DNA from: Sediminibacterium sp.
GTDB taxonomy: Bacteria; Bacteroidota; Bacteroidia; B-17B0; Aurantibacillaceae
Direction: 5' to 3'
Assembly: GCA_030054095.1 (NCBI GenBank)
Contig: JASGCO010000022.1
Location: 1 to 64,000 of the forward strand
Length of the DNA: 64,000 nt
The notes beneath the pieces were generated by a model, which made no database searches, had not been told where the DNA came from, and saw only the letters and a program-made list of their open reading frames with translations. The position numbers and the translations under genes are program-made. This document shows, piece by piece, positions 46,210 through 62,176 of this stretch. Numbering within the stretch: the first letter of the stretch is position 1; each line of letters begins with the position of its first letter.

Positions 46210-46881
46210 ATGAATCAAGCCAGCAAATATTGGTACCTGAGAAACCACCGGTTGTTTGATCAATTAAATCATAAGGAAGTTGAAGATTTATGTATTATCT
46301 CGAACATGAAATCCGCAGAAAAGAACGATGTTATTTATTTTAATGAATCGGAGATTAAAAAAATTTTTATACTTAAAGTGGGTACGGTAAAAATTTGCAG
46401 GGAAGATGAGAAGGGAAAAGAAATAATTACTGAAATGTTAACAGAAGGTGACATCTTCGGGCATATTAATAGTACAAGTAGCCAATATGCCAAAGTTTTA
46501 TCAGATCATGTAAAACTATGTTTTTTTGAACTTAATAATTTTATGAATGTTTTAAAAAACAATACCAATCTGGCATTAAGGTATAATGAAGCCATGAATG
46601 AGAAACTGATCTCATTTCAGCAAAAATATGAGGATCTTATTTTTAAAGATGTTGACACGCGCGTTTTAGATTTTTTTAAAAAATACGCGAAGTATCATGG
46701 TAAAACCAATGGCAATACCGTTGAAATGGAAATGATGCTGACTCATCAGGACATTGCAGATTATACAGCCTCCTCCCGCCAATCTGTAACAACAATAATA
46801 AATCGTCTTGTGGAAAAGGGCACAATTGTTTATGAAGGCAGAAAAAAGGTAATTATTCCAAACATAAAAGCCCTCGGTTAA
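46210..46881 (+). CDS. Crp/Fnr-family regulator next to the YceI/polyketide operon
   Basis: 223 residues: N-terminal sensor beta-roll (about 25-120, FILKVGTVKICREDEKGKEIITEMLTEGDIFG), dimer helix, and C-terminal winged helix with recognition helix SSRQSVTTIINRLVEKGTI (about 192-210). It has no Fnr-type Cys cluster. Its likely targets are the TGTCA-N6-TGACA palindromes at 48281-48300 and 58540-58555 and a weaker one at 56102-56117. That link is inferred from proximity and palindrome type. Confidence 0.9.
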   Translation: MNQASKYWYLRNHRLFDQLNHKEVEDLCIISNMKSAEKNDVIYFNESEIKKIFILKVGTVKICREDEKGKEIITEMLTEGDIFGHINSTSSQYAKVLSDHVKLCFFELNNFMNVLKNNTNLALRYNEAMNEKLISFQQKYEDLIFKDVDTRVLDFFKKYAKYHGKTNGNTVEMEMMLTHQDIADYTASSRQSVTTIINRLVEKGTIVYEGRKKVIIPNIKALG

Positions 46882-48245
46882 ATTTTTATACCAACAACCA
46901 AAATATCATCAGTTTGTGATACGTTGCCTTGATGCTCTGATAGAACATTTATCAATACCTGACGCTGTTCCTCCAATTTTAAGGTGCTGGTATCCAATAA
47001 TAATTGCAATAATTTTCTTTTTAACAGCTTTTTTCCATTAATATTAAATTGATCGTAATACCCGTCAGAAAAGGAATAAACAATGTCATTTTTCTGTAAT
47101 TCAAACTCAATACTTTTGAAAGGATGATAGTTGATCATCGTTTCTCCTATTGGCCTTCTATCGCCCTTTAATTCGATAATTTTACCAGTCCTTACAATGT
47201 ACACTGATCGATTGGCCCCCGAAAACTGAAGTGTTTGCTTTTCTGTGTTTATTCTTAGTAAGGCTATATCCATTCCATCATCATTCAGCTTTTGGTTTTT
47301 AACGTTTTTATTTAAGGTTCGTATAACTTCATGATGTAGTTTATCCAACACCTCATTTGTATTTTGCAATTGATGATAATTAACAACTGCATCCAGCAGA
47401 AAATTGCCAACAATGGATAATAAGGCCCCAGGAACACCGTGTCCGGTACAATCCGCAACAGCCATAAAAACATCCTCCTTGCACTTGTTTGTCCATAAAA
47501 AATCTCCACTTACTGTATCTTTAGGCTTAAACAAAACAAATGAGTCTGAAAATGACTTTGTAAGCCCTATTTCATTCTGAACAATAGAATTTTGTATGTT
47601 TTGCGCATAATCCAGACTGCTTTTAATCTGAGACTGGACATCTTCCAGATTCCTGTTTTTCGCCGATATTTGCTGGTTTTTTACTTTTAATTTTTTATAA
47701 AATAAAATTGTAGAAACTATAATGATCAATAAAAAGATCAAGACAATAATAAAAAGGTAAACTATTTCCCTATTCTTCCTTTTTTGTTCAATTTTATCAG
47801 CTTCAATTATTTTGTAAAGTGTATTATTATTGTAAAGTACATTTTGAGTTAGAGAGAACGTTTTATCGTATTTTTCCATTTCCTCAAACAAACTTATGGT
47901 GTTAAAATAGTAGGTAAATGCGGAATCGTACTCTTCTCTTAACGAATGAATATATCCTATATCAACTGCCAAAGCTTGTAAAGTATCAAACATGTTAAGT
48001 TTCTTACAAATTTGATAGGCCATTTTAGCAAAATTCAGATTAAACACATTAGCTGAATTTGCATTGAAGTTTCCTTCTAAAGGCTGTTGGTTGTAGTGTA
48101 ATTCAAGAAGACTATCAAGTACTGCCTTTTTAGAGCTTTGTATTCGGTCACTTTTTACATCAACAGAATCCAAAACCACCGAATAACTGTTAAAATTCAG
48201 TATGAATATGGCCAGAAAGCTAAATAAATTGAATCTATTAACCAT
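46878..48245 (-). CDS. SpoIIE-type serine phosphatase with membrane anchor
   Basis: 455 residues. Signal-like N-terminus, then a truncated helical (TPR-like) region to about 155. One membrane helix (about 162-185, IVYLFIIVLIFLLIIIVSTI) and a coiled coil (190-215) follow. The PP2C-SpoIIE domain (about 225-455) has VSGDFLWTN, VADCTGHGVPGALLS and VYSFSDGYYDQ metal motifs. Such proteins act through anti-sigma antagonists or partner switching; none is adjacent. It is divergent from the YceI operon, with the 48281-48300 palindrome between, and its end overlaps the Crp/Fnr gene by 4 bases. Confidence 0.88.
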   Translation of the reverse strand: MVNRFNLFSFLAIFILNFNSYSVVLDSVDVKSDRIQSSKKAVLDSLLELHYNQQPLEGNFNANSANVFNLNFAKMAYQICKKLNMFDTLQALAVDIGYIHSLREEYDSAFTYYFNTISLFEEMEKYDKTFSLTQNVLYNNNTLYKIIEADKIEQKRKNREIVYLFIIVLIFLLIIIVSTILFYKKLKVKNQQISAKNRNLEDVQSQIKSSLDYAQNIQNSIVQNEIGLTKSFSDSFVLFKPKDTVSGDFLWTNKCKEDVFMAVADCTGHGVPGALLSIVGNFLLDAVVNYHQLQNTNEVLDKLHHEVIRTLNKNVKNQKLNDDGMDIALLRINTEKQTLQFSGANRSVYIVRTGKIIELKGDRRPIGETMINYHPFKSIEFELQKNDIVYSFSDGYYDQFNINGKKLLKRKLLQLLLDTSTLKLEEQRQVLINVLSEHQGNVSQTDDILVVGIKI

Positions 48246-48280: not shown

Positions 48281-48300
48281 TTTGTCAGGTAAGTGACAAA
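48281..48300. promoter_or_regulatory. Perfect palindrome TTTGTCA-N6-TGACAAA (probable Crp/Fnr-type operator)
   Basis: TTTGTCA (48281-48287) and TGACAAA (48294-48300) pair fully around GGTAAG. It lies between the divergent SpoIIE and YceI genes, 36 bases from either start. The arm sequence recurs at 58540-58555 in front of another YceI operon. Confidence 0.65.
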
Positions 48301-48336: not shown

Positions 48337-48885
48337 ATGGCCTGCATAAACATTATTTTGATTAACCTATTCCTTTTTTGCTCACTGGCTAAGCAATATG
48401 AAAATGAAATACCTTCAGATAATTACAGCATCTATTTCAAAGTTAAAAACTCAGGTTCAACTGTAACTGGTAATTTTAAAGGGTTAAATTTGAAATATGA
48501 ATTTAATAAGAATAAGTTAAATACTTCCTTTTTTGAAGGATCACTTGATGTGGCTTCCATTAAAACTGGAATCGAAATGCGGAATCGCCATTTAAAAAAA
48601 GGAGAGTACTTTGATGCTTTATATTATCCAAAAATACTATTAAAAACGACCAAAATTGAATCAGTTTCAGATGACAATTACAAAATTACCTGTAACCTTA
48701 CAATAAAAGGAATATCTAAAACAATAATTTTACCCGCTAAAATTAATTATTCCGGTAATTGGCTTTTATTAAGCAGTCAGTTTGAGTTAAATCGCCTAGA
48801 TTTTGGACTAGGTAGTCCAAGCATTGTTATGTCTAAAAATGTTATTGTATTTATTGATATTAAACTAAGTAAAAATGAAAAATAA
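48337..48885 (+). CDS. YceI-family periplasmic protein (first gene of the polyketide operon)
   Basis: 182 residues from ATG 48337, with an N-terminal export segment. The YceI lipocalin-like barrel shows YFKVKNSGSTVTGNFKGLNLKYEF, LDVASIKTGIEMRNRHLKKGEYFDALYYPKI and the end LNRLDFGLGSPSIVMSKNVIVFIDIKL. Family members bind polyprenyl chains such as isoprenoid quinones. That fits the UbiA and type III polyketide synthase genes in the same operon. It overlaps the DM13 gene by 11 bases and is a paralogue of the 59355-59906 protein. Confidence 0.9.
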   Translation: MACINIILINLFLFCSLAKQYENEIPSDNYSIYFKVKNSGSTVTGNFKGLNLKYEFNKNKLNTSFFEGSLDVASIKTGIEMRNRHLKKGEYFDALYYPKILLKTTKIESVSDDNYKITCNLTIKGISKTIILPAKINYSGNWLLLSSQFELNRLDFGLGSPSIVMSKNVIVFIDIKLSKNEK

Positions 48886-49291
48886 AACACTAGTTATTAT
48901 TGTTACAATTCTATTTTTAGCAGGTTGCAAAAAGAAAGAAAAAAACAACTCTCTAAATGAAGGTTTTGATACTGAGGGAGCAACACTCATTGCGCAATCT
49001 AACTTTTCAAGTAATGCGCATACTACTTCCGGCCGTGTGAGTGTATATTCTAAAGATGGCTCAAAACAACTGGTATTTGACGGATTTAAAACAGATAGCG
49101 GTCCTGATTTAAGGGTTTATCTTTCAAAAACTACTACCAATAAAGACTTTATAAATATCGGGAATTTAAAATCTACCAATGGAAATTTCAATTATTCTTT
49201 TGATAACGCCGTTAACACGTCAGAATATAAATACGTTCTGATTTGGTGCGAAGATTTTTCAGTTCTTTTTGGTAATGCGCTATTACATTAA
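48875..49291 (+). CDS. DM13-domain lipoprotein
   Basis: 138 residues with lipobox FLAGC (Cys 18) and a DM13 domain: ARSNF-like SNFSSNAHTTSGRVSVYSKDGSKQLVFDGFKTDSGPDLRVYLS, then YKYVLIWCEDFSVLFGNALL. DM13 has one near-invariant Cys, here WCEDF, and is proposed to take part in redox or electron transfer. It overlaps the YceI gene and is 3 bases from DoxX. Confidence 0.85.
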   Translation: MKNKTLVIIVTILFLAGCKKKEKNNSLNEGFDTEGATLIAQSNFSSNAHTTSGRVSVYSKDGSKQLVFDGFKTDSGPDLRVYLSKTTTNKDFINIGNLKSTNGNFNYSFDNAVNTSEYKYVLIWCEDFSVLFGNALLH

Positions 49292-49294
49292 AAC

Positions 49295-49699
49295 ATGGTT
49301 TCAGTTAGAGTTATTTCATGGGGGGCCGCGGTTATAGCCGCGGTGATAATGCTCCAAACATTGTATTTCAAATTTACAGGAGCACCTGAAAGTATTTATA
49401 TTTTTACCCAATTAGGAATAGAGCCTATTGGAAGAATTGGTATTGGTGTTGCAGAGTTGATTGCTTCTATAACATTGGTAATACCCAAAAGCCGATTTTT
49501 TGGCGCATTAATAACTATTAGTTTGATGATCGGAGCTGTTGTCGGTCATTTAACCAAAGTTGGCATTGAGGTTATGAATGATTCGGGATACTTGTTTACA
49601 TTATGTTTAATTGTTTTATCGAACGCGTTTATATGTTTATATTTAGAAAGAAAACAGTTGATCTTATTTGTAAAAAATGCCTTTACTTCCCGATTATAA
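49295..49699 (+). CDS. DoxX-family four-helix membrane protein
   Basis: 134 residues, four membrane helices (about 7-24, 48-65, 72-90, 100-117), with the DoxX-like LQTLYFKFTGAPESIYIFTQLGIEP and GVAELIASITLV. DoxX proteins are linked to thiosulfate:quinone oxidoreductase and oxidative stress. It overlaps UbiA by 23 bases. Confidence 0.8.
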   Translation: MVSVRVISWGAAVIAAVIMLQTLYFKFTGAPESIYIFTQLGIEPIGRIGIGVAELIASITLVIPKSRFFGALITISLMIGAVVGHLTKVGIEVMNDSGYLFTLCLIVLSNAFICLYLERKQLILFVKNAFTSRL

Positions 49700-50555
49700 T
49701 ACATTAAAACTATTGAGGATTCCATTCTCGTTTTTCTTAATGCCCGTTTTTATCCTGGCACTAAGTCAAACCAACGATGTAAAACTACTAAATGCAATTG
49801 GAACGTTTCTGGTTATACATTTATTAGTATATCCGGCAAGTAATGGTTACAACAGTTACATAGACAGAGACGAATCACCTATTGGTGGTTTGGAACATCC
49901 GCCTTTACCAACCAAAAAATTGTTTCATATAACCTTACTAATGGATATAGTATCGGTTAGCTTATCATTTTTTTTGATAAATAAGCTGTTTTCAGTTTGC
50001 ATACTAGCCTATATCCTTGCATCCAGAGCTTATAGTTCAAAACAAATACGTTTAAAAAAATACCCGTTAATTGGCTTTTTGGTGGTGGTTGTGTTCCAGG
50101 GTGCCTTCACGTTTTTCATGTGTTCAGCGGGCATCTCAAATGTTCCGTTTTCAGTTACATCCACCAACAGTTATATTCTTCTTGCCTGTTCGTTTCAAAT
50201 TGCCGGTGCCTACCCACTTACACAAATTTATCAGCATAAAGAAGACGTTGCAGCCGGCGTTGTAACGCTTAGTTACAAATTGGGGTATAAAGGAACCTTT
50301 GTTTTTACGGCTATTATGTTTGCAATTTGCAATATCTTCTATTACATCTACTTTTATAGAACAGACAAAGTCAGTCATTTCTACATTCTACAGCTTTTTT
50401 TTGCTCCTGTAATTATCTTTTTTACTTACTGGCTTTTAAAAGTGATAAAAACTAAATCAGAAGCCAATTTCAAAAATACCATGATCATGAATACAATTGC
50501 GGCTATTTGTATGAATAGTTGTTTTACACTACTTACCTTCTTAAACCATTTTTAG
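49677..50555 (+). CDS. UbiA-family prenyltransferase
   Basis: 292 residues with eight to nine membrane helices. The first Asp-rich motif is NGYNSYIDRDE (N-x-x-x-D-x-x-x-D type, about 56-66). The second is HKEDVAAGVVTLSYKLG (about 186-202), where UbiA enzymes bind Mg-diphosphate. It would attach an isoprenoid chain to an aromatic acceptor in the membrane. The following polyketide synthase, one base downstream, is the obvious source of that acceptor; this is inference. Confidence 0.88.
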   Translation: MPLLPDYNTLKLLRIPFSFFLMPVFILALSQTNDVKLLNAIGTFLVIHLLVYPASNGYNSYIDRDESPIGGLEHPPLPTKKLFHITLLMDIVSVSLSFFLINKLFSVCILAYILASRAYSSKQIRLKKYPLIGFLVVVVFQGAFTFFMCSAGISNVPFSVTSTNSYILLACSFQIAGAYPLTQIYQHKEDVAAGVVTLSYKLGYKGTFVFTAIMFAICNIFYYIYFYRTDKVSHFYILQLFFAPVIIFFTYWLLKVIKTKSEANFKNTMIMNTIAAICMNSCFTLLTFLNHF

Positions 50556-51626
50556 TTGAGCTATTTAATTGCCATAGGAACCGCTTTACCCGATTATTGC
50601 CATAAGCAACAAGATATCTGCTCATTTTTTGAAAAGGCTACAACCGATGAAAATACACGAAGAAAACTACGGTTTATTTCAGAAAAATCCGGAATATCTG
50701 AACGGTACTCTGTTTTAAACGATTTTAGCCTTGCAGAAAAAAATCCTGCCTTATTTAAAAATAAGTTAACAGTTCCATCCTTAAGCGACCGAATGGCTGT
50801 TTATAAGGAGCAGGCTCTCAACTTAGCACTTAAAGCTATTTTAAATATTACTCAATTTAACGATATTAAAAATAGTATTTCGCATATTATTACGGTGACC
50901 TGTACTGGTTTATTTGCCCCGGGATTAGATATTGATTTAGTTCGCGAACTATATTTGTCGCCCACCGTTCAGCGTAGTAGTATTAATTTTATGGGATGCA
51001 ACGCGGCCATATTAGCGCTAAACGCAGCAAATAACATTTGTAATACTCATCCAAACTCAAAGGTATTGGTTGTATGTGTTGAGTTATGTACCATACATTT
51101 TCAAAACAATGACACTGATGATTTTATCTTAGCCAACACATTATTTGCAGATGGAGCTGCGGCCGTCCTGATTGGATCGCAATCTCTCGAAGAAAAGAAA
51201 GTTAAGATTCATTCCTTTAACTCTTTAATAATAGATAAAGGTAAAAATGACATGGCATGGAACATATCTGAAACCGGCTTTATTATGAATTTAACATCTT
51301 ATGTTTCCGCATTAATCAGTAGCAATATGCATGCGTTTTTGAAAGGCATTGATCTGGAAAAGGAGGCCATTGATTATTGGGCAATACATCCGGGGGGTAA
51401 AAAAATTATTGATGATTTTGCGTCAGTATTAGAGCTGAAAAATAGTGAACTGCAAGCTTCTTACGATGTCCTCAACAGTTACGGTAACATGTCTTCTCCT
51501 ACTGTTTTGTTTGTGTTAAAACAAGTGTTGCAAGTTTCAGGAAACGCGCCAATTGGCAGCAAACTGTTTTCGGCAGCATTTGGACCAGGTTTAAGTATTG
51601 AAACCATGCAATTGCAGTATGTTTAA
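50556..51626 (+). CDS. Type III polyketide synthase
   Basis: 356 residues of the chalcone/stilbene-synthase type with the full catalytic triad: C148 (NFMGCNAA), H278 (AIHPGGK) and N311 (SYGNMSSPT). The start is TTG 50556, directly after the UbiA stop; MSYLIAIGTALP is the normal family N-terminus. It would condense a starter, possibly fatty acyl, with malonyl-CoA to a resorcinol or pyrone. Methyltransferase and flavoprotein genes follow, as in the Streptomyces srsABC phenolic-lipid operon. Confidence 0.92.
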   Translation: MSYLIAIGTALPDYCHKQQDICSFFEKATTDENTRRKLRFISEKSGISERYSVLNDFSLAEKNPALFKNKLTVPSLSDRMAVYKEQALNLALKAILNITQFNDIKNSISHIITVTCTGLFAPGLDIDLVRELYLSPTVQRSSINFMGCNAAILALNAANNICNTHPNSKVLVVCVELCTIHFQNNDTDDFILANTLFADGAAAVLIGSQSLEEKKVKIHSFNSLIIDKGKNDMAWNISETGFIMNLTSYVSALISSNMHAFLKGIDLEKEAIDYWAIHPGGKKIIDDFASVLELKNSELQASYDVLNSYGNMSSPTVLFVLKQVLQVSGNAPIGSKLFSAAFGPGLSIETMQLQYV

Positions 51627-52308
51627 AGAAAGATGTTATAAAAAGGAATTACTGGACGCGGATATTATTCCTGACGCGGCTTTATACCAAAACCTCAGAG
51701 AACTGGATGTGATAAATGCTCTGTTAGGCGGTTACAGAATGACTTTTAGCGCTTTAAGTAAGGTGCTAAAAAAAGGGATAAAATACACCATTGTTGATAT
51801 AGGATGTGGCGGCGGAGATACACTTAAACGGATTTTCAGGTGGAACAAAACACAGCACTATGATATTGACCTATATGGCATTGATTTAAAACAAACCTGT
51901 ATTGATTATTCAATAACTAACAATTCAATACCAGCTATCCAATTTATTCGCGACGATTATAAAAATATCTATAAGCACTTGCCTAAAGTTGACATCATAC
52001 ACGCCTGCTTATTTTGCCATCATTTGGCAGATTCAGAAATAATTGAGTTGATCAAATTTGCTCAGGAGCATAAATCTACTTTAATTATTAATGACCTGGA
52101 GCGTAACGTGCTTGCATATTATTCTATAAAGTTCCTCACGCACCTTTTTTCTAAGTCCTATCTGGTAAAGAACGATGCGCCTCTTTCTGTTTTAAGAGGA
52201 TTTAAAAGGAAAGAATGGGAAAAGCTCATTCAAGCATCAGGAACAAACAGATACACGATAAAATATAAATGGGCATTCAGGCACGAAGTGATTATTTATG
52301 CAGATTGA
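51619..52308 (+). CDS. SAM-dependent methyltransferase (polyketide tailoring)
   Basis: 229 residues from ATG 51619, overlapping the polyketide synthase end by 8 bases. Motif I is IVDIGCGGGDTLKRIF (about 54-69), motif II LYGIDLKQ, and IIHACLFCHHLADSE follows. The position equals srsB in srsABC-type operons, so it is likely to methylate the polyketide product. Substrate inferred. Confidence 0.88.
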   Translation: MFKERCYKKELLDADIIPDAALYQNLRELDVINALLGGYRMTFSALSKVLKKGIKYTIVDIGCGGGDTLKRIFRWNKTQHYDIDLYGIDLKQTCIDYSITNNSIPAIQFIRDDYKNIYKHLPKVDIIHACLFCHHLADSEIIELIKFAQEHKSTLIINDLERNVLAYYSIKFLTHLFSKSYLVKNDAPLSVLRGFKRKEWEKLIQASGTNRYTIKYKWAFRHEVIIYAD

Positions 52309-53425
52309 AGACGCTAAAATATACGATTGTGTGATTATTGGCGGCGGCTTGGCTGGTCTTTGTTTATCTATTCTATTAACCCAAAAAAACTACAGTGTTG
52401 TTCTTATTGAAAAAAATAAATACCCTTTTCATAAAGTGTGTGGAGAGTATGTTTCAATGGAAAGTTATGACTTTATAAAGTCATTAGGACTTAATTTAGA
52501 TGAAATGGATTTGCCAATCATCAATCAATTAAACATCACCGCGCATAATGGTTACAAAATAACCTCTCAGTTAAAAATGGGTGGATTTGGAATAAGCAGA
52601 TACACGCTGGATTATGAATTGGCCCGGATAGCAAAAAATAATGGTGTACAAATTTTTGAGGATTGTACTGCTACGCATGTTCAATTACAAAATGCGGAAT
52701 ATACAGTAGAAACAACATTAAGAAATTTTAAATCTAAATTGGTTTGCGGATCTTATGGCAAGATAGAGCCATCTTTTATTGAAAGAACTAAAAGTAAAAA
52801 GAAACGTAATTTTATTGCAGTTAAATACCATATAAAAACCTCTTTTCCCGATAATTTAATTGAATTGCACAATTTTAAGGACGGCTATTGTGGTATTTCT
52901 AAAGTGGACAATCAAACAATTTGTTTATGCTATTTAACTACCGCTGAAAACTTAAATGAAAACGGTAAATCAATTAAAGAAATGGAAAGAAATGTTTTAA
53001 TGAGAAACCCGCACTTGCATAAGTACTTTTCGGAAGCCACGTTTCTTTTTGAGAAACCCTTAACTATTAGTCAGATTGGGTTTAGTAAAAAACAGACATA
53101 TAAAAACGACCTCTTGTTACTTGGCGATTCTGCCGGAGCCATTGCGCCATTATGCGGGAATGGTATGAGTATGGCTTTGCGATCCTCACAGATTATTTCC
53201 AATTACATGGATAAGTACCTGCAAAATAAATTAACAAAGGATGAATTAATAAAACACTACACTGATGAGTGGAATACTAATTTCTCATTCAGAATAAAGG
53301 CAGGTTACTATTTACAGCTACTTTTTGGAAAATACCAAACAACTTTATGGAGTTTGAAGTTACTTCGCTATTTTCCTGTTCTATTTCGGAAATTAATAAC
53401 ATTAACCCACGGAGAAAAATTTTAG
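52298..53425 (+). CDS. FAD-dependent oxidoreductase (geranylgeranyl-reductase/hydroxylase type)
   Basis: 375 residues. FAD motif CVIIGGGLAGLCLS (about 11-24), YPFHKVCGEYVSMES (about 43-57), a signature of this group, and LLLGDSAGAIAPLCGNGMSMAL (about 270-292) for the second nucleotide contact. It overlaps the methyltransferase by 11 bases. In srsABC the corresponding SrsC hydroxylates the alkylresorcinol so that it becomes a quinone; the same role is a reasonable inference. Confidence 0.88.
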   Translation: MQIEDAKIYDCVIIGGGLAGLCLSILLTQKNYSVVLIEKNKYPFHKVCGEYVSMESYDFIKSLGLNLDEMDLPIINQLNITAHNGYKITSQLKMGGFGISRYTLDYELARIAKNNGVQIFEDCTATHVQLQNAEYTVETTLRNFKSKLVCGSYGKIEPSFIERTKSKKKRNFIAVKYHIKTSFPDNLIELHNFKDGYCGISKVDNQTICLCYLTTAENLNENGKSIKEMERNVLMRNPHLHKYFSEATFLFEKPLTISQIGFSKKQTYKNDLLLLGDSAGAIAPLCGNGMSMALRSSQIISNYMDKYLQNKLTKDELIKHYTDEWNTNFSFRIKAGYYLQLLFGKYQTTLWSLKLLRYFPVLFRKLITLTHGEKF

Positions 53426-53426
53426 C

Positions 53427-54086
53427 ATGGAAGCAAAGTTCATCCCCTATTCAAAGGAACTTCTCCGAGGAGAAGAGTTGAAAAATGAGAGTCTAAGGCA
53501 CTATCAATTTATGAACAGCAGGAGAACGGTGAGGGAGTTTTCTAAGGAATCTATTCCCTTAGACGTAATCAGTAATATTATCATGTCCGCTTCTACCGCA
53601 CCATCAGGTGCAAATAAGCAACCCTGGACCTTCTGCGTAGTAACAGATCAAGCGTTGAAATCGAAAATAAGAGCAGCAGCAGAAAAGGAAGAGTACGAAA
53701 GTTATAACGGGCGTATGCCGCAAGAATGGTTAGACGACTTAAGTTATTTAGGAACAGATTGGCATAAACCATTTCTGGAAGATGCACCTGCGTTGATTAT
53801 TGTGTTCAAAAAATCGTATGATCTGGAAAACAACATCAAAAGAACGAATTACTATGTTACTGAATCTGTTGGTCTGGCTTGCGGCTTTTTGTTACAGGCA
53901 ATTCACCAATGTGGATTAGTAGCCTTGACGCATACGCCCAGTCCGATGAATTTTTTATGTCAACTGTTAAACAGGCCAGTTAACGAAAAACCCTTTTTAC
54001 TGATTCCAATTGGCTATCCGGCAGAAAATGTAATGGTGCCAGACATTAAAAGAAAGGAAAGAAAGGATGTAATTGTTTATTACTAA
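53427..54086 (+). CDS. Nitroreductase-fold flavoprotein of the iodotyrosine-deiodinase type
   Basis: 219 residues. FMN-binding SRRTVREFS (31-39) and APSGANKQPW (58-67). Between them and the end lies the lid of iodotyrosine deiodinases: E89, Y93 and K114, spaced 4 and 21 residues as in human IYD (E157, Y161, K182), within EEYESYNGRM and WLDDLSYLGT-DWHK. Homologues reductively remove halogen from halotyrosines. It is last in the operon, one base after the FAD gene; an unhalogenated quinone could also be the substrate. Confidence 0.88.
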   Translation: MEAKFIPYSKELLRGEELKNESLRHYQFMNSRRTVREFSKESIPLDVISNIIMSASTAPSGANKQPWTFCVVTDQALKSKIRAAAEKEEYESYNGRMPQEWLDDLSYLGTDWHKPFLEDAPALIIVFKKSYDLENNIKRTNYYVTESVGLACGFLLQAIHQCGLVALTHTPSPMNFLCQLLNRPVNEKPFLLIPIGYPAENVMVPDIKRKERKDVIVYY

Positions 54087-58539: not shown

Positions 58540-58555
58540 TGTCAGTTGCGTGACA
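58540..58555. promoter_or_regulatory. Palindrome TGTCA-N6-TGACA upstream of the second YceI operon
   Basis: TGTCA (58540-58544) and TGACA (58551-58555) pair fully around GTTGCG, 52 bases before ATG 58607. Same arms and spacing as at 48281-48300. Confidence 0.55.
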
Positions 58556-58606: not shown

Positions 58607-59347
58607 ATGAAGTATTCGTTAACAACGTTCCTGCTTGTTTTATCCCTTACTACAAGCATAAATGCGCAGGAAACATCCACCGGAAAAACAGGATATAAAT
58701 ACAATAACAACTTTGATCTGGCTTTGTCTTCAGCAGGAGCGCAGTCTTCCGGAGCTTTATCATGGGTTAAATTTCATTCCATAACGAAAAAAGGCAGATT
58801 TAAACTTGGTTATGGGTTAAGGTTTACTTCACAGTTTGGAAAGGATCTGAACTATACAACGGCCCCTGCCATTCTAACTTCAAAACAAACTGGTCCGCAA
58901 GTACTTTTTTCTGAAACATTTCCCGAAAATATAGACACTTTAGTTGTTCCATCTTCGCAAAATAATGCTCTGAATATCAGCGTTAATCTTCAGTACACCA
59001 TAAAAGAAAAGTTTGATATTGGGTTTAATATTGATGCTATCGGTGTTTCTTTTGGAGGACGCACTACCGGAAAGTATATGGCTTATCAGTCAACCGATAA
59101 AGGAACACAACAATCAGCGAAACCAACATCTTATAATTTACTTTTAGTAAGTGATAATGATATAGGGATGTTAAATTCTGAACTATACTTTAGATATTGG
59201 TTTAATCAGCGTTGGGCAATTCGCGCAGGTGCCACTTTTTTATTTACCGAGTACACTACAGATAAAAAATTACGTTTAAATAATGATCGCTGGAGGAATA
59301 AATCTTTAATGGGCTTAGTTGGTATTACGTTTTCACCTTTCAGATAG
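58607..59347 (+). CDS. Outer-membrane beta-barrel protein, unknown function
   Basis: 246 residues. Signal peptide to 20 (TSINAQ), then repeated amphipathic strands (LGYGLRFTSQFG, LNISVNLQYTIKEKFDIGFNID, LNSELYFRYWFNQRWAIRAGATFLFTEY) ending GITFSPFR. No family recognised. It heads the operon with YceI, DinB, NRDE and ATP-grasp genes, 8 bases before YceI. Confidence 0.65.
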   Translation: MKYSLTTFLLVLSLTTSINAQETSTGKTGYKYNNNFDLALSSAGAQSSGALSWVKFHSITKKGRFKLGYGLRFTSQFGKDLNYTTAPAILTSKQTGPQVLFSETFPENIDTLVVPSSQNNALNISVNLQYTIKEKFDIGFNIDAIGVSFGGRTTGKYMAYQSTDKGTQQSAKPTSYNLLLVSDNDIGMLNSELYFRYWFNQRWAIRAGATFLFTEYTTDKKLRLNNDRWRNKSLMGLVGITFSPFR

Positions 59348-59354
59348 TTACTAA

Positions 59355-59906
59355 ATGAAAAAATTACTCTTTTTAGCATTATGCTTAATCAGTTTGATGG
59401 CTGTTTCACAAACAGTTGTAACCCATAATAAGGAGTGGCAGGTAAGCTCTTCAGCCGTTAAATTCAAAATTAAAAATGCGGGATTTAATGTAAGTGGCAT
59501 ATTTACTGGTTTAAATGCGAAAATTATTTTTGACGTATCGAAAAGTTATGGCAATTCTATAGAAGCTACAATAGAATCTAAATCAGTAAGCACAGGAAAT
59601 AATACAAGAGATAATCACTTGAAAAAGACAGATTATTTTGACGTGGAAAAATTCCCGGTCATTACAATGAAAGCGACCCTTTTTAGTAAAGAAACAAATG
59701 AAAACTTCAAAGGGTATTTTAAATTAACCATAAAAAATAAAACTAAAGACGTTGTTGTACCTTTTACATTTACAGAGAAGGATGGAAAAGCTACGTTTAA
59801 AGGAATATTTACAATTAATCGTCTGGATTTTGGGGTTGGCGAGTCGAGCGTGATTCTGTCTGATAATGCCACAATAACAATTGAAGTTAACACTACGAAA
59901 AAGTAA
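59355..59906 (+). CDS. YceI-family periplasmic protein, second copy
   Basis: 183 residues. Signal peptide to 18, then the YceI barrel (VKFKIKNAGFNVSGIFTGLNAKI, NNTRDNHLKKTDYFDVEKFPVI, TINRLDFGVGESSVILSDNATITIEV). Paralogue of the 48337-48885 protein with matching blocks. It probably binds a polyprenyl lipid or quinone. Confidence 0.92.
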   Translation: MKKLLFLALCLISLMAVSQTVVTHNKEWQVSSSAVKFKIKNAGFNVSGIFTGLNAKIIFDVSKSYGNSIEATIESKSVSTGNNTRDNHLKKTDYFDVEKFPVITMKATLFSKETNENFKGYFKLTIKNKTKDVVVPFTFTEKDGKATFKGIFTINRLDFGVGESSVILSDNATITIEVNTTKK

Positions 59907-59907
59907 T

Positions 59908-60408
59908 ATGTTAAAACAAGAAGCCATTAAACAACTTTTAAGTGTACAATCTATCCTCTCTCAAATAAAAGATGAAGATTACAGAGCCCCGCTTAATACC
60001 ATCAAAGGATCATCTATTGGTAAACACATCAGGCATGTTGTTGAATTTTACGAATGTTTGCTGTTCGGCAATTCTAACAACACCGTAAATTACGATGCGC
60101 GAAATAGAGACATACTCTTAGAGGAGAATATAAAATATACAGAAAATTTTATTACTGAAATAATAGACAAATTAGAGAAGATTGAAACAAACTCAAGAAT
60201 TTTACTAGTATCGAACTACCAAAATCAGGCTTTTAGCATAGAGTCATCATTCTACAGAGAACTTACTTATAACATCGAACATACAGTACATCATCTGGCT
60301 ATTGTTAGTATTGCAATTCCTATACATTTTGGGTACATTCATTTGACACCAGATTTTGGGTATGCAAATTCAACAATACAGTATTTTAATTCACAAAAAA
60401 ACACCTGA
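59908..60408 (+). CDS. DinB-superfamily metal-binding protein
   Basis: 166 residues from ATG 59908, one base after the YceI stop. Four-helix DinB-like fold with three His ligands expected at GKHIRHVVEFYECLL and YNIEHTVHHLAIVSIAI. Members include thiol-transferases (bacillithiol or mycothiol type) and stress proteins; the exact reaction is unknown. Confidence 0.85.
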   Translation: MLKQEAIKQLLSVQSILSQIKDEDYRAPLNTIKGSSIGKHIRHVVEFYECLLFGNSNNTVNYDARNRDILLEENIKYTENFITEIIDKLEKIETNSRILLVSNYQNQAFSIESSFYRELTYNIEHTVHHLAIVSIAIPIHFGYIHLTPDFGYANSTIQYFNSQKNT

Positions 60409-60413
60409 ATTTT

Positions 60414-61142
60414 ATGTGTACAGTTACCTATTTACCGTTTAATCAAAGAGAATTTATCCTTACTTCTAACAGGGATGAAGACGTAAACAGATCATCGGCT
60501 TTGCCAGTTCAGGAATACACTATAAACAACAGAACCATTTTTTTTCCAAAAGATCAAAAAGCCAACGGCACCTGGATAGCCTATGATGTGAAAGGATACA
60601 CCCTTTGTTTACTAAACGGAGCCAACAAACCGCATGTTCCTAAAATAAATTACAAGAAAAGCAGAGGATTAATGTTGCTTGATTTTTATTTTTATAATGA
60701 ACCTGAAAGTTTTGCAAAGCACTACGATTTTAAAGGTATTGAACCATTTACGTTGATTATGGCCTATTCTTGTTCAGATACAGACAAGGTAAGATTATTT
60801 GAACTAAAATGGGATGAAGAGAAAGTAGAATTGATCCCTCTTGATTCATCTTTGCCACAAATATGGTCATCAGTTACATTGTATAGTAGTGAGGTAATTA
60901 AGAATAGAGAGAAGTGGTTTAATGAATGGTTAGGTAAAAATACTACTTATACACCAGACACTATTCTGTTTTTTCATCACTTTGGAGGTAATGGTTCAGT
61001 TGATAATGATTTAATAATTAACAGAACAACAAAAAAAACAGTAAGTGTTTGCTGCATCAATAAAAGTATAACACATACAGATATTATTTACGAAGACATT
61101 CTGAATAAAACACTTCATAAAAGTAAGGTTATTAATTGTTGA
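60414..61142 (+). CDS. NRDE/TANGO2-family protein
   Basis: 242 residues beginning MCTVTYLPFNQREFILTSNRDEDVNR, the TANGO2 signature in which Cys2 is thought to become an N-terminal nucleophile. NRDE is at about 19-22. FFHHFGGNGSVDND lies near the end. TANGO2 proteins are linked to membrane-lipid or haem handling; the role here is unknown. Its stop overlaps the ATP-grasp start by one base. Confidence 0.92.
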   Translation: MCTVTYLPFNQREFILTSNRDEDVNRSSALPVQEYTINNRTIFFPKDQKANGTWIAYDVKGYTLCLLNGANKPHVPKINYKKSRGLMLLDFYFYNEPESFAKHYDFKGIEPFTLIMAYSCSDTDKVRLFELKWDEEKVELIPLDSSLPQIWSSVTLYSSEVIKNREKWFNEWLGKNTTYTPDTILFFHHFGGNGSVDNDLIINRTTKKTVSVCCINKSITHTDIIYEDILNKTLHKSKVINC

Positions 61143-62176
61143 TGAAAGTCCCTTTATTTATAGCAAAATTTAGCAGGTATGAATATTGGCCATGGTGGAT
61201 TTTTTATCTGCCCGTACTTCCATATTGGCTCTATCTGTCTTTAAAAACCAAATCTTTAACATATTTTACCGCTGCAAACCCCGGAATAGAACTGGGTGGA
61301 TTTTATGGAGAAAGTAAAAGCAAAATTCTTGATTTAATTGACAAGCGCTATTTACCTAAATCTGTATCGGTAGATAGTTCAGCAAGTGTTGAAAGTATCT
61401 TAGATCAGATGAACGCTATTGGGCTTTTATATCCGGTAATTGCGAAACCGGATGTTGGAGAGCGGGGCAATCAGGTCACCTTAATTCACACTGAACAAGA
61501 CTTGATACGTTACAACAGAACGTCAAAATCAAAATACATTATTCAGGAGTTTATTGATTATACAATTGAATTGGGCGTTTTGTACAGCAGAATGCCGGAT
61601 GAACAAAAGGGTAAAGTGACCTCTATTACACTAAAAGAATTTTTGAGCGTAACCGGCGACGGAACATCTACGGTGCTCGAACTAATGCAAAAAAAATTAC
61701 GTGCCAGATTTCAAATTGATCGACTGAGCAAAGAATTTCCAGATAAAATGAATGTTGTTTTGAAAGAAGGAGAACATATACTTTTAGAACCCATAGGTAA
61801 CCACTGCAGAGGCACACTGTTTATTGATAATAACTATCTGATTAATGACACGCTAAATGAGGTCTTTGATAAAATATGTGTACCGATTCATGGATTTTAC
61901 TATGGCAGATTTGATTTAAAAGTAAAGAGTATCGAAGATTTATATAAAGGGAATAATATCAGGATTATGGAACTGAACGGGGCAAGTTCTGAACCCGGAC
62001 ATATTTATGATCCTTCATTAACTCTTTTTAAAGCATATAAGGATTTATTAAGCCACTGGAAACGGTTAGCTGAAATATCCAACGCAAATATGAAACTTGG
62101 ATTTACTCCCGTTTCATTTTCTTTAATAATAAAGACGTATTGGAAGTTTGTCGTACTAAGAAATGGCCAATCTTAA
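61142..62176 (+). CDS. ATP-grasp domain ligase-like protein
   Basis: 344 residues from ATG 61142. An N-terminal hydrophobic region (about 16-32) may attach it to the membrane. ATP-grasp elements are VIAKPDVGERG (ATP lysine and loop, about 102-112), KYIIQEFIDYTIELGV, and IRIMELNGASSEPGHIYDP with the metal ligands E and N (about 278-296). Carboxylate-amine ligase chemistry is typical. It is last in the YceI-DinB-NRDE operon; substrate unknown. Confidence 0.85.
   Translation: MKVPLFIAKFSRYEYWPWWIFYLPVLPYWLYLSLKTKSLTYFTAANPGIELGGFYGESKSKILDLIDKRYLPKSVSVDSSASVESILDQMNAIGLLYPVIAKPDVGERGNQVTLIHTEQDLIRYNRTSKSKYIIQEFIDYTIELGVLYSRMPDEQKGKVTSITLKEFLSVTGDGTSTVLELMQKKLRARFQIDRLSKEFPDKMNVVLKEGEHILLEPIGNHCRGTLFIDNNYLINDTLNEVFDKICVPIHGFYYGRFDLKVKSIEDLYKGNNIRIMELNGASSEPGHIYDPSLTLFKAYKDLLSHWKRLAEISNANMKLGFTPVSFSLIIKTYWKFVVLRNGQS

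Follow-up and report, generated by a model that had tools for sequence, protein, structure and literature searches.

A UbiA-fold membrane enzyme paired with a type III polyketide synthase in the Bacteroidia: a candidate pathway to a phenolic redox lipid

Gene clusters that join a type III polyketide synthase (PKS) to tailoring enzymes form the background to a locus that we examined in Sediminibacterium sp. (assembly GCA_030054095.1; Bacteroidota; Bacteroidia), where genes for a UbiA-fold membrane enzyme, a type III PKS, a methyltransferase (MT) and a flavoprotein lie at positions 48337–54086 of the first 64,000 nucleotides of contig JASGCO010000022.1 (the whole 64,000-nucleotide stretch is called the window below). 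The agq cluster of Actinoplanes missouriensis (agqA–D) makes alkyl-O-dihydrogeranyl-methoxyhydroquinones (Awakawa 2011, as cited in PMC10896814, PMC7692728 and PMC4044012), the alkylresorcinols of AgqA becoming prenylated and hydroxylated (PMC10896814, PMC7692728). In the losA region of Micromonospora, a UbiA-family gene and a methyltransferase gene stand beside the PKS gene, and the oxidative gene is annotated as an acyl-CoA dehydrogenase (PMC7587189). Operons encoding a methyltransferase, a flavin adenine dinucleotide (FAD) oxidoreductase and a type III PKS occur in cyanobacteria (hidABC, for hierridins) and in Planctomycetota and make methylated alkylresorcinols; one planctomycete operon also holds a lipoprotein gene and a gene for a lipid/isoprenoid-binding protein (PMC10896814). 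The srsABC operon of Streptomyces griseus directs synthesis of alkylquinones, and loss of srsA leads to higher beta-lactam sensitivity (PMC10896814). Finally, UbiA-297 of the ebo cluster farnesylates 8-hydroxyquinoline-2-carboxylic acid (PMC9235831).

A preliminary description of the window had listed eight genes of named families on one strand, overlapping or abutting throughout, and both Pfam matches and coordinates bear this out (spacings between neighbours, −23 to +3 bp):

48337–48885, + strand, YceI-domain protein with an N-terminal signal-like segment; accessory, recurrent (Pfam YceI, 2.8e-25)
48875–49291, + strand, DM13-domain lipoprotein with lipobox LAGC; accessory (Pfam DM13, 9.4e-21)
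49295–49699, + strand, DoxX-like membrane protein; accessory (Pfam DoxX_2, 1.3e-06; 29.0 bits against a cut-off of 26.3)
49677–50555, + strand, UbiA-fold membrane enzyme with altered metal/diphosphate motifs; core (Pfam UbiA, 5.7e-19)
50556–51626, + strand, type III PKS; core (Pfam Chal_sti_synt_N, 1.3e-33; Chal_sti_synt_C, 1.1e-20)
51619–52308, + strand, class I S-adenosylmethionine (SAM) methyltransferase; core (Pfam Methyltransf_31/25, about 1e-7)
52298–53425, + strand, FAD-dependent oxidoreductase; core (Pfam DAO/FAD_binding_3, about 1e-8)
53427–54086, + strand, nitroreductase-fold flavoprotein; accessory (Pfam Nitroreductase, 1.6e-19)

The first ATG of the YceI frame is at 48337, with the mechanically called open reading frame (ORF) opening earlier, at TTG 48325. 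The PKS gene starts with a TTG directly behind the UbiA stop codon (TAG); the two genes share a frame, and a single stop codon parts the two proteins. The ATG of the MT gene (51619) overlaps the PKS stop, and that of the FAD enzyme (52298) overlaps the MT stop.

To see which of these genes stay together, we compared 57 named relatives, retrieved by pattern searching with only the PKS protein as query; this search favours close kin, and many of the relatives are metagenome assemblies. UbiA lies immediately upstream of the PKS, or is fused to it, in 56 of the 57, the last contig beginning within the PKS gene. The MT gene comes next after the PKS in 54 (two of the three exceptions are contigs that end too early), and a flavoprotein of the window's type follows the MT in 44. 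Nine loci of a Bacteroidales-like clade (L077, L079, L080, L085, L088, L089 and L091–L093) carry a flavoprotein of about 540 residues in the fourth core position; the only one scanned, that of L092, matches FAD_binding_3 with 282 bits and has the ring-hydroxylase C-terminal domain Rng_hyd_C.

The other four genes behave differently. YceI is within the cluster at 12 of the 57 loci, behind the flavoprotein in 11 and ahead of UbiA in one, and on the PKS tree its presence switches some six times, indicating that the association with the core recurs; the genome as a whole has six YceI genes. DM13 and DoxX stand beside UbiA elsewhere only in L048 (1/57), and an orthologue of the nitroreductase follows the flavoprotein only in the congener L103 and in none of the 57. 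The patchiness of the accessory genes rules out a conserved eight-gene unit: by sequence comparison the conserved unit is UbiA–PKS–MT–flavoprotein, and the eight-gene arrangement is this genome's own. The preliminary description had taken all eight as one operon and had proposed a survey of operon conservation. The operon stands for this genome, and the survey finds the core kept together and the accessory genes patchy; of the latter, YceI is a recurrent neighbour, while DM13 with DoxX and the nitroreductase each recur in one other genome.

The link between UbiA and the PKS is especially close. In nine Dyadobacter species, D. fermentans and D. beijingensis included, the two are encoded by a single ORF of 653–692 residues, and the fused ORFs form one clade on the PKS tree, which suggests that the fusion arose once. 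Where the two genes are separate, the PKS start codon is usually a TTG or GTG that overlaps the UbiA stop or lies a few bases beyond it. The fusion is read from the sequence and from the per-residue confidence of a model of the fused protein (mean, 90); the predicted template modelling score of 0.66 leaves it unsure how the two domains sit relative to each other. We also asked how the two subfamilies are distributed in 395 genomes sampled from the phylum (cut-offs, E ≤ 1e-50 for the PKS and E ≤ 1e-40 for UbiA). They occur in an identical set of 23 genomes in the window's class, plus an identical three of family f14. The probability that two sets of 23 coincide by chance is about 1 in 10^20 (at least 82 class genomes), although kinship among the genomes makes the true figure far less extreme. 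Judged from coordinates, UbiA and the PKS are contiguous on one strand in about eight of these genomes, divergent neighbours in 12 and apart in six. These data support the view that this UbiA is an obligate partner of this PKS subfamily in the class.

Where UbiA is unlinked to the PKS in family f10 (L109, L110 and L112), it adjoins another SAM methyltransferase-like gene, whose product begins ...FEFEDLPWFPAVIRAGMMDYLRFMIS.

In Dyadobacter, the core adjoins a convergent carotenoid set comprising lycopene cyclase, a hydroxylase-like protein, a NUDIX protein, phytoene synthase, phytoene desaturase and a MerR regulator:

L044, L047, L050, L052, L054, L055, L061, L062, L065, L067–L069 and L095, Dyadobacter loci with carotenoid neighbours, about 12.9–18 kb

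The NUDIX protein resembles isopentenyl diphosphate isomerase. Such neighbours may fit an isoprenoid donor for the core, and they may also be there by coincidence.

How does the core compare with the described systems? It has the gene content described for the agq type (PKS, MT, oxidase, UbiA-like protein), in which the alkylresorcinol made by a type III PKS is prenylated and hydroxylated; agq differs in being actinobacterial, and a UbiA–PKS fusion is not described there. The lipoprotein and lipid/isoprenoid-binding genes of the planctomycete operon resemble the window's DM13 and YceI genes. However, the hidABC and planctomycete operons have the order MT–FAD–PKS and no UbiA, and their expressed PKSs yield alkylresorcinols with no prenyl group (PMC10896814). 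The ebo enzyme UbiA-297 is likewise a UbiA-fold aromatic prenyltransferase encoded in a conserved operon of Bacteroidota, but it retains DxxDxxxD, and its cluster lacks a PKS (PMC9235831). The UbiA motif and the neighbouring genes rule out that the locus is an ebo cluster (PMC9235831). Identity with the flexirubin/dialkylresorcinol (dar) cluster is likewise ruled out: there are no dar genes, and the operon encodes no condensing enzyme other than the type III PKS. With srsABC the locus shares a PKS, a methyltransferase and a flavoprotein, which in S. griseus make oxidised alkylresorcinols; srsABC has no UbiA. SrsB is an isoprenylcysteine-methyltransferase-type enzyme, whereas the window's MT is of the class I SAM type and matches Methyltransf_31/25 rather than the isoprenylcysteine carboxyl methyltransferase family in Pfam. 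The parallel with srsABC drawn in the preliminary description is thus functional and not gene-for-gene.

This type of pathway is already known from agq, hidABC, the planctomycete operons and srsABC (PMC10896814, PMC7692728, PMC7587189), and the preliminary suggestion of a new kind of product overstated the novelty, prenylated, hydroxylated alkylresorcinols and MT–FAD–PKS operons both having been described (PMC10896814, PMC7692728). What is new, as far as sequence comparison can tell, is that one UbiA subfamily is paired with the pathway across the Bacteroidia, that its motif is altered, that UbiA and the PKS are fused in some species and that one type of flavoprotein can take the place of another. 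In the open-access literature searched we found no report of the product or of such a fusion.

The PKS has the chalcone/stilbene synthase domains, and motifs for the catalytic Cys (FMGCNAA), His (HPGGK) and Asn (YGNMSS) are present both in the window's translation and in the alignment consensus; it resembles solved PKSs, PKS18 among them. As in alkylresorcinol and alkylquinone operons, genes for an MT and a flavin oxidoreductase lie adjacent to it. The MT gives 124.5 bits against NCBIfam PRK06202, under the cut-off of 243. The flavoprotein is probably an aromatic-ring hydroxylase, and the exchange for a ring hydroxylase in the L092 clade points to ring hydroxylation rather than prenyl-chain reduction.

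Trios of PKS, MT and FAD genes also occur without this UbiA subfamily. The Balneola-like family f25 (L025–L037) has PKS–MT–FAD_binding_3 operons, often with a gene for a MATE-like transporter beside them. Plasmids of Deinococcus and Roseomonas carry the trio in the order PKS–MT–FAD, and a Psychrobacter plasmid carries it in another arrangement: on the 49-kb Antarctic plasmid 5 of Psychrobacter urativorans (L096), the type III PKS is 41% identical to the window's, and the FAD and MT genes are convergent to the PKS gene. A search of plasmids for a UbiA of the agq type found none. Trios of this kind outside the class suggest that PKS–MT–FAD is the wider pathway and that UbiA is an addition made in the Bacteroidia.

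We then looked at the UbiA protein itself. It belongs to the UbiA superfamily (PF01040, 68.8 bits; cut-off, 34.2), and its AlphaFold model (44 family members) has a mean predicted local distance difference test score of 94. The top folds in the PDB are UbiA-superfamily prenyltransferases (7bpu, 4tq3 and 4tq4), some with geranyl diphosphate (GPP) or dimethylallyl diphosphate (DMAPP) bound; digeranylgeranylglyceryl phosphate synthase and GPP-bound Archaeoglobus UbiA are included. A PDB search by sequence gave no relative, only one chance match to a Fab. The canonical prenyltransferase motifs NDxxDxxxD and DxxxD are absent from all 81 sequences compared, taken from linked, divergent and unlinked loci. 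In their place are NSxxDxD and TQxYQxxxD, invariant in 81/81 (N59, S60, D63 and D65; T182, Q183, Y185, Q186 and D190). Position 67 is mostly T, G, E or S, with aspartate in 10 of the 81. Aligned with UbiA paralogues from the same genome, which has seven other UbiA-family genes, several with more typical motifs, the protein has lost three motif residues, at positions two and nine of NDxxDxxxD and at the leading aspartate of DxxxD. The paralogues make a place for the core UbiA in the menaquinone or haem pathways less likely. On its motif pattern we read the core UbiA as an active, re-specialised enzyme. The earlier claim that UbiA adds an isoprenoid is consistent with the fold but sits less well with the two missing aspartates and their fixed S/Q substitutes; with the residues that normally hold the prenyl diphosphate replaced, prenylation is plausible, not assured. 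We adopt it as a working hypothesis, the default suggested by the fold and by the agq precedent.

Taken together, the contiguous core, the nine fused ORFs and the shared set of 23 genomes support the earlier proposal that PKS, MT and flavoprotein act in one pathway whose product is an oxidised phenolic lipid, UbiA being an obligate partner. The four genes, carried by a group of soil and water bacteria, probably build a methylated, oxidised phenolic lipid, possibly with an isoprenoid tail. More specifically, we favour, at somewhat better than even confidence, a membrane-tethered pathway to a phenolic redox lipid, that is, a prenylated, methylated alkyl-hydroquinone or -quinone. The PKS would elongate a fatty acyl starter into a ring of the alkylresorcinol type, which the MT would methylate and the flavoprotein would hydroxylate to a hydroquinone oxidisable to the quinone. 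UbiA, beside or fused to the PKS, would receive the newly made phenol at the face of the membrane and attach an isoprenoid by way of its altered metal/diphosphate site; methylation, hydroxylation and prenylation are drawn in no fixed order. YceI, and here also DM13 and DoxX, would act in the envelope as carriers or users of the product, a role suggested by their family annotation. The genes and their order, the overlapping starts and stops, the UbiA–PKS fusion and co-occurrence, the UbiA fold and altered motif and the hydroxylase exchange are read from sequence; we infer from there to all substrates and products, the prenylation step and the envelope role.

Several observations weigh against this proposal. 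E. coli UbiA requires D71, D75, D191 and D195, and the core enzyme presumably lacks the equivalents of D75 and D191, keeping D63, D65 and D190; moreover, the substitutes at the lost positions never vary among the 81 sequences. The best curated relative of the flavoprotein is the geranylgeranyl-reductase superfamily (88 bits, under a cut-off of 158.8). The UbiA-less trios imply that a phenolic lipid can do without UbiA, and the patchy distribution of the core within the genus implies that the product is not essential. The PKS product could also be an alkylpyrone.

The strongest competing explanation keeps the phenolic lipid and denies UbiA its prenyltransferase role, the site having been rebuilt for another transfer or a ring-forming reaction, or the protein serving mainly to anchor the PKS in the membrane. 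The invariant NSxxDxD/TQxYQxxxD residues, set against NDxxDxxxD and DxxxD in several paralogues of the same genome, favour such a change, as do the fusion and the coupling to the PKS. We nevertheless consider it doubtful: the fold matches prenyltransferases with GPP or DMAPP bound, the retained D63, D65 and D190 could hold Mg, the carotenoid neighbours fit an isoprenoid donor, and the strong conservation of side chains speaks against a mere anchor. A related and bolder idea, which we advance only tentatively, is that the rebuilt UbiA, fused to the PKS in Dyadobacter, acts directly on the PKS product in a transfer or ring reaction new to the superfamily, so that these Bacteroidota would make envelope redox lipids of a new class.

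Another alternative is a methylated and oxidised polyketide that is not a quinone, an alkylpyrone for example, which would serve as a signal, pigment or antibiotic and have no link to electron transfer. PKS18, one of the solved relatives, is an alkylpyrone maker, and the core has no gene for a terminal electron acceptor. Yet an MT and an aromatic-ring hydroxylase accompany the PKS across phyla, as in alkylresorcinol operons (PMC10896814), and the DM13 and DoxX neighbours in the window suggest redox; we regard a non-quinone product as unlikely. That the core genes merely decorate a carotenoid or flexirubin is very improbable, since, even though the Dyadobacter operon borders carotenoid genes and flexirubin includes a dialkylresorcinol (PMC9606717), no recognisable carotenoid genes lie near the operon in the window or in the congeners inspected, relatives in many families have no such neighbourhood, and the published flexirubin route uses the condensing enzymes DarA/DarB and no type III PKS (PMC9606717).

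Type III PKS genes were found in 190 of the 395 sampled Bacteroidota genomes, about half, and a search of the open-access literature turned up no identified type III PKS product for the phylum. A UbiA–PKS link tight enough for fusion in nine species predicts that a lipophilic polyketide is passed directly to an active site in the membrane. A prenylated hydroquinone as product would give these bacteria one more lipid quinone in addition to menaquinone; any other activity of UbiA would be new chemistry for a superfamily otherwise reliant on Asp-rich diphosphate sites. Cultured carriers (Dyadobacter fermentans, D. beijingensis and Cytophaga aurantiaca) make the core pathway directly testable.

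Outside the operon, the window contains candidate regulatory elements:

48283–48298, no strand (palindromic), perfect palindrome TGTCA-N6-TGACA (TGTCAggtaagTGACA), candidate site for a Crp/Fnr-family protein, 39 bp ahead of the YceI start
58540–58555, no strand (palindromic), second exact TGTCA-N6-TGACA, 52 bp ahead of another operon with a YceI gene (58607–62176)
46210–46881, + strand, Crp/Fnr-family regulator, candidate for the operon (Pfam cNMP_binding, HTH_Crp_2); syntenic in L039/L102 and L048

There are four exact palindromes in the 4.63-Mb genome, and of the other two one falls within an ORF and one is not in any evident promoter. The pattern is not enriched genome-wide (four sites, compared to three for a control pattern), and so position alone speaks for the palindrome at 48283–48298, which we treat as a lead and a candidate Crp/Fnr-family site. 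In L048, a copy with one mismatch occupies the matching position upstream of DM13. Between the regulator and the operon, a gene divergent from the latter (46878–48245, − strand) encodes a protein that has repeats at its N terminus, a membrane helix and a part similar to SpoIIE-type phosphatases; it is syntenic in L102.

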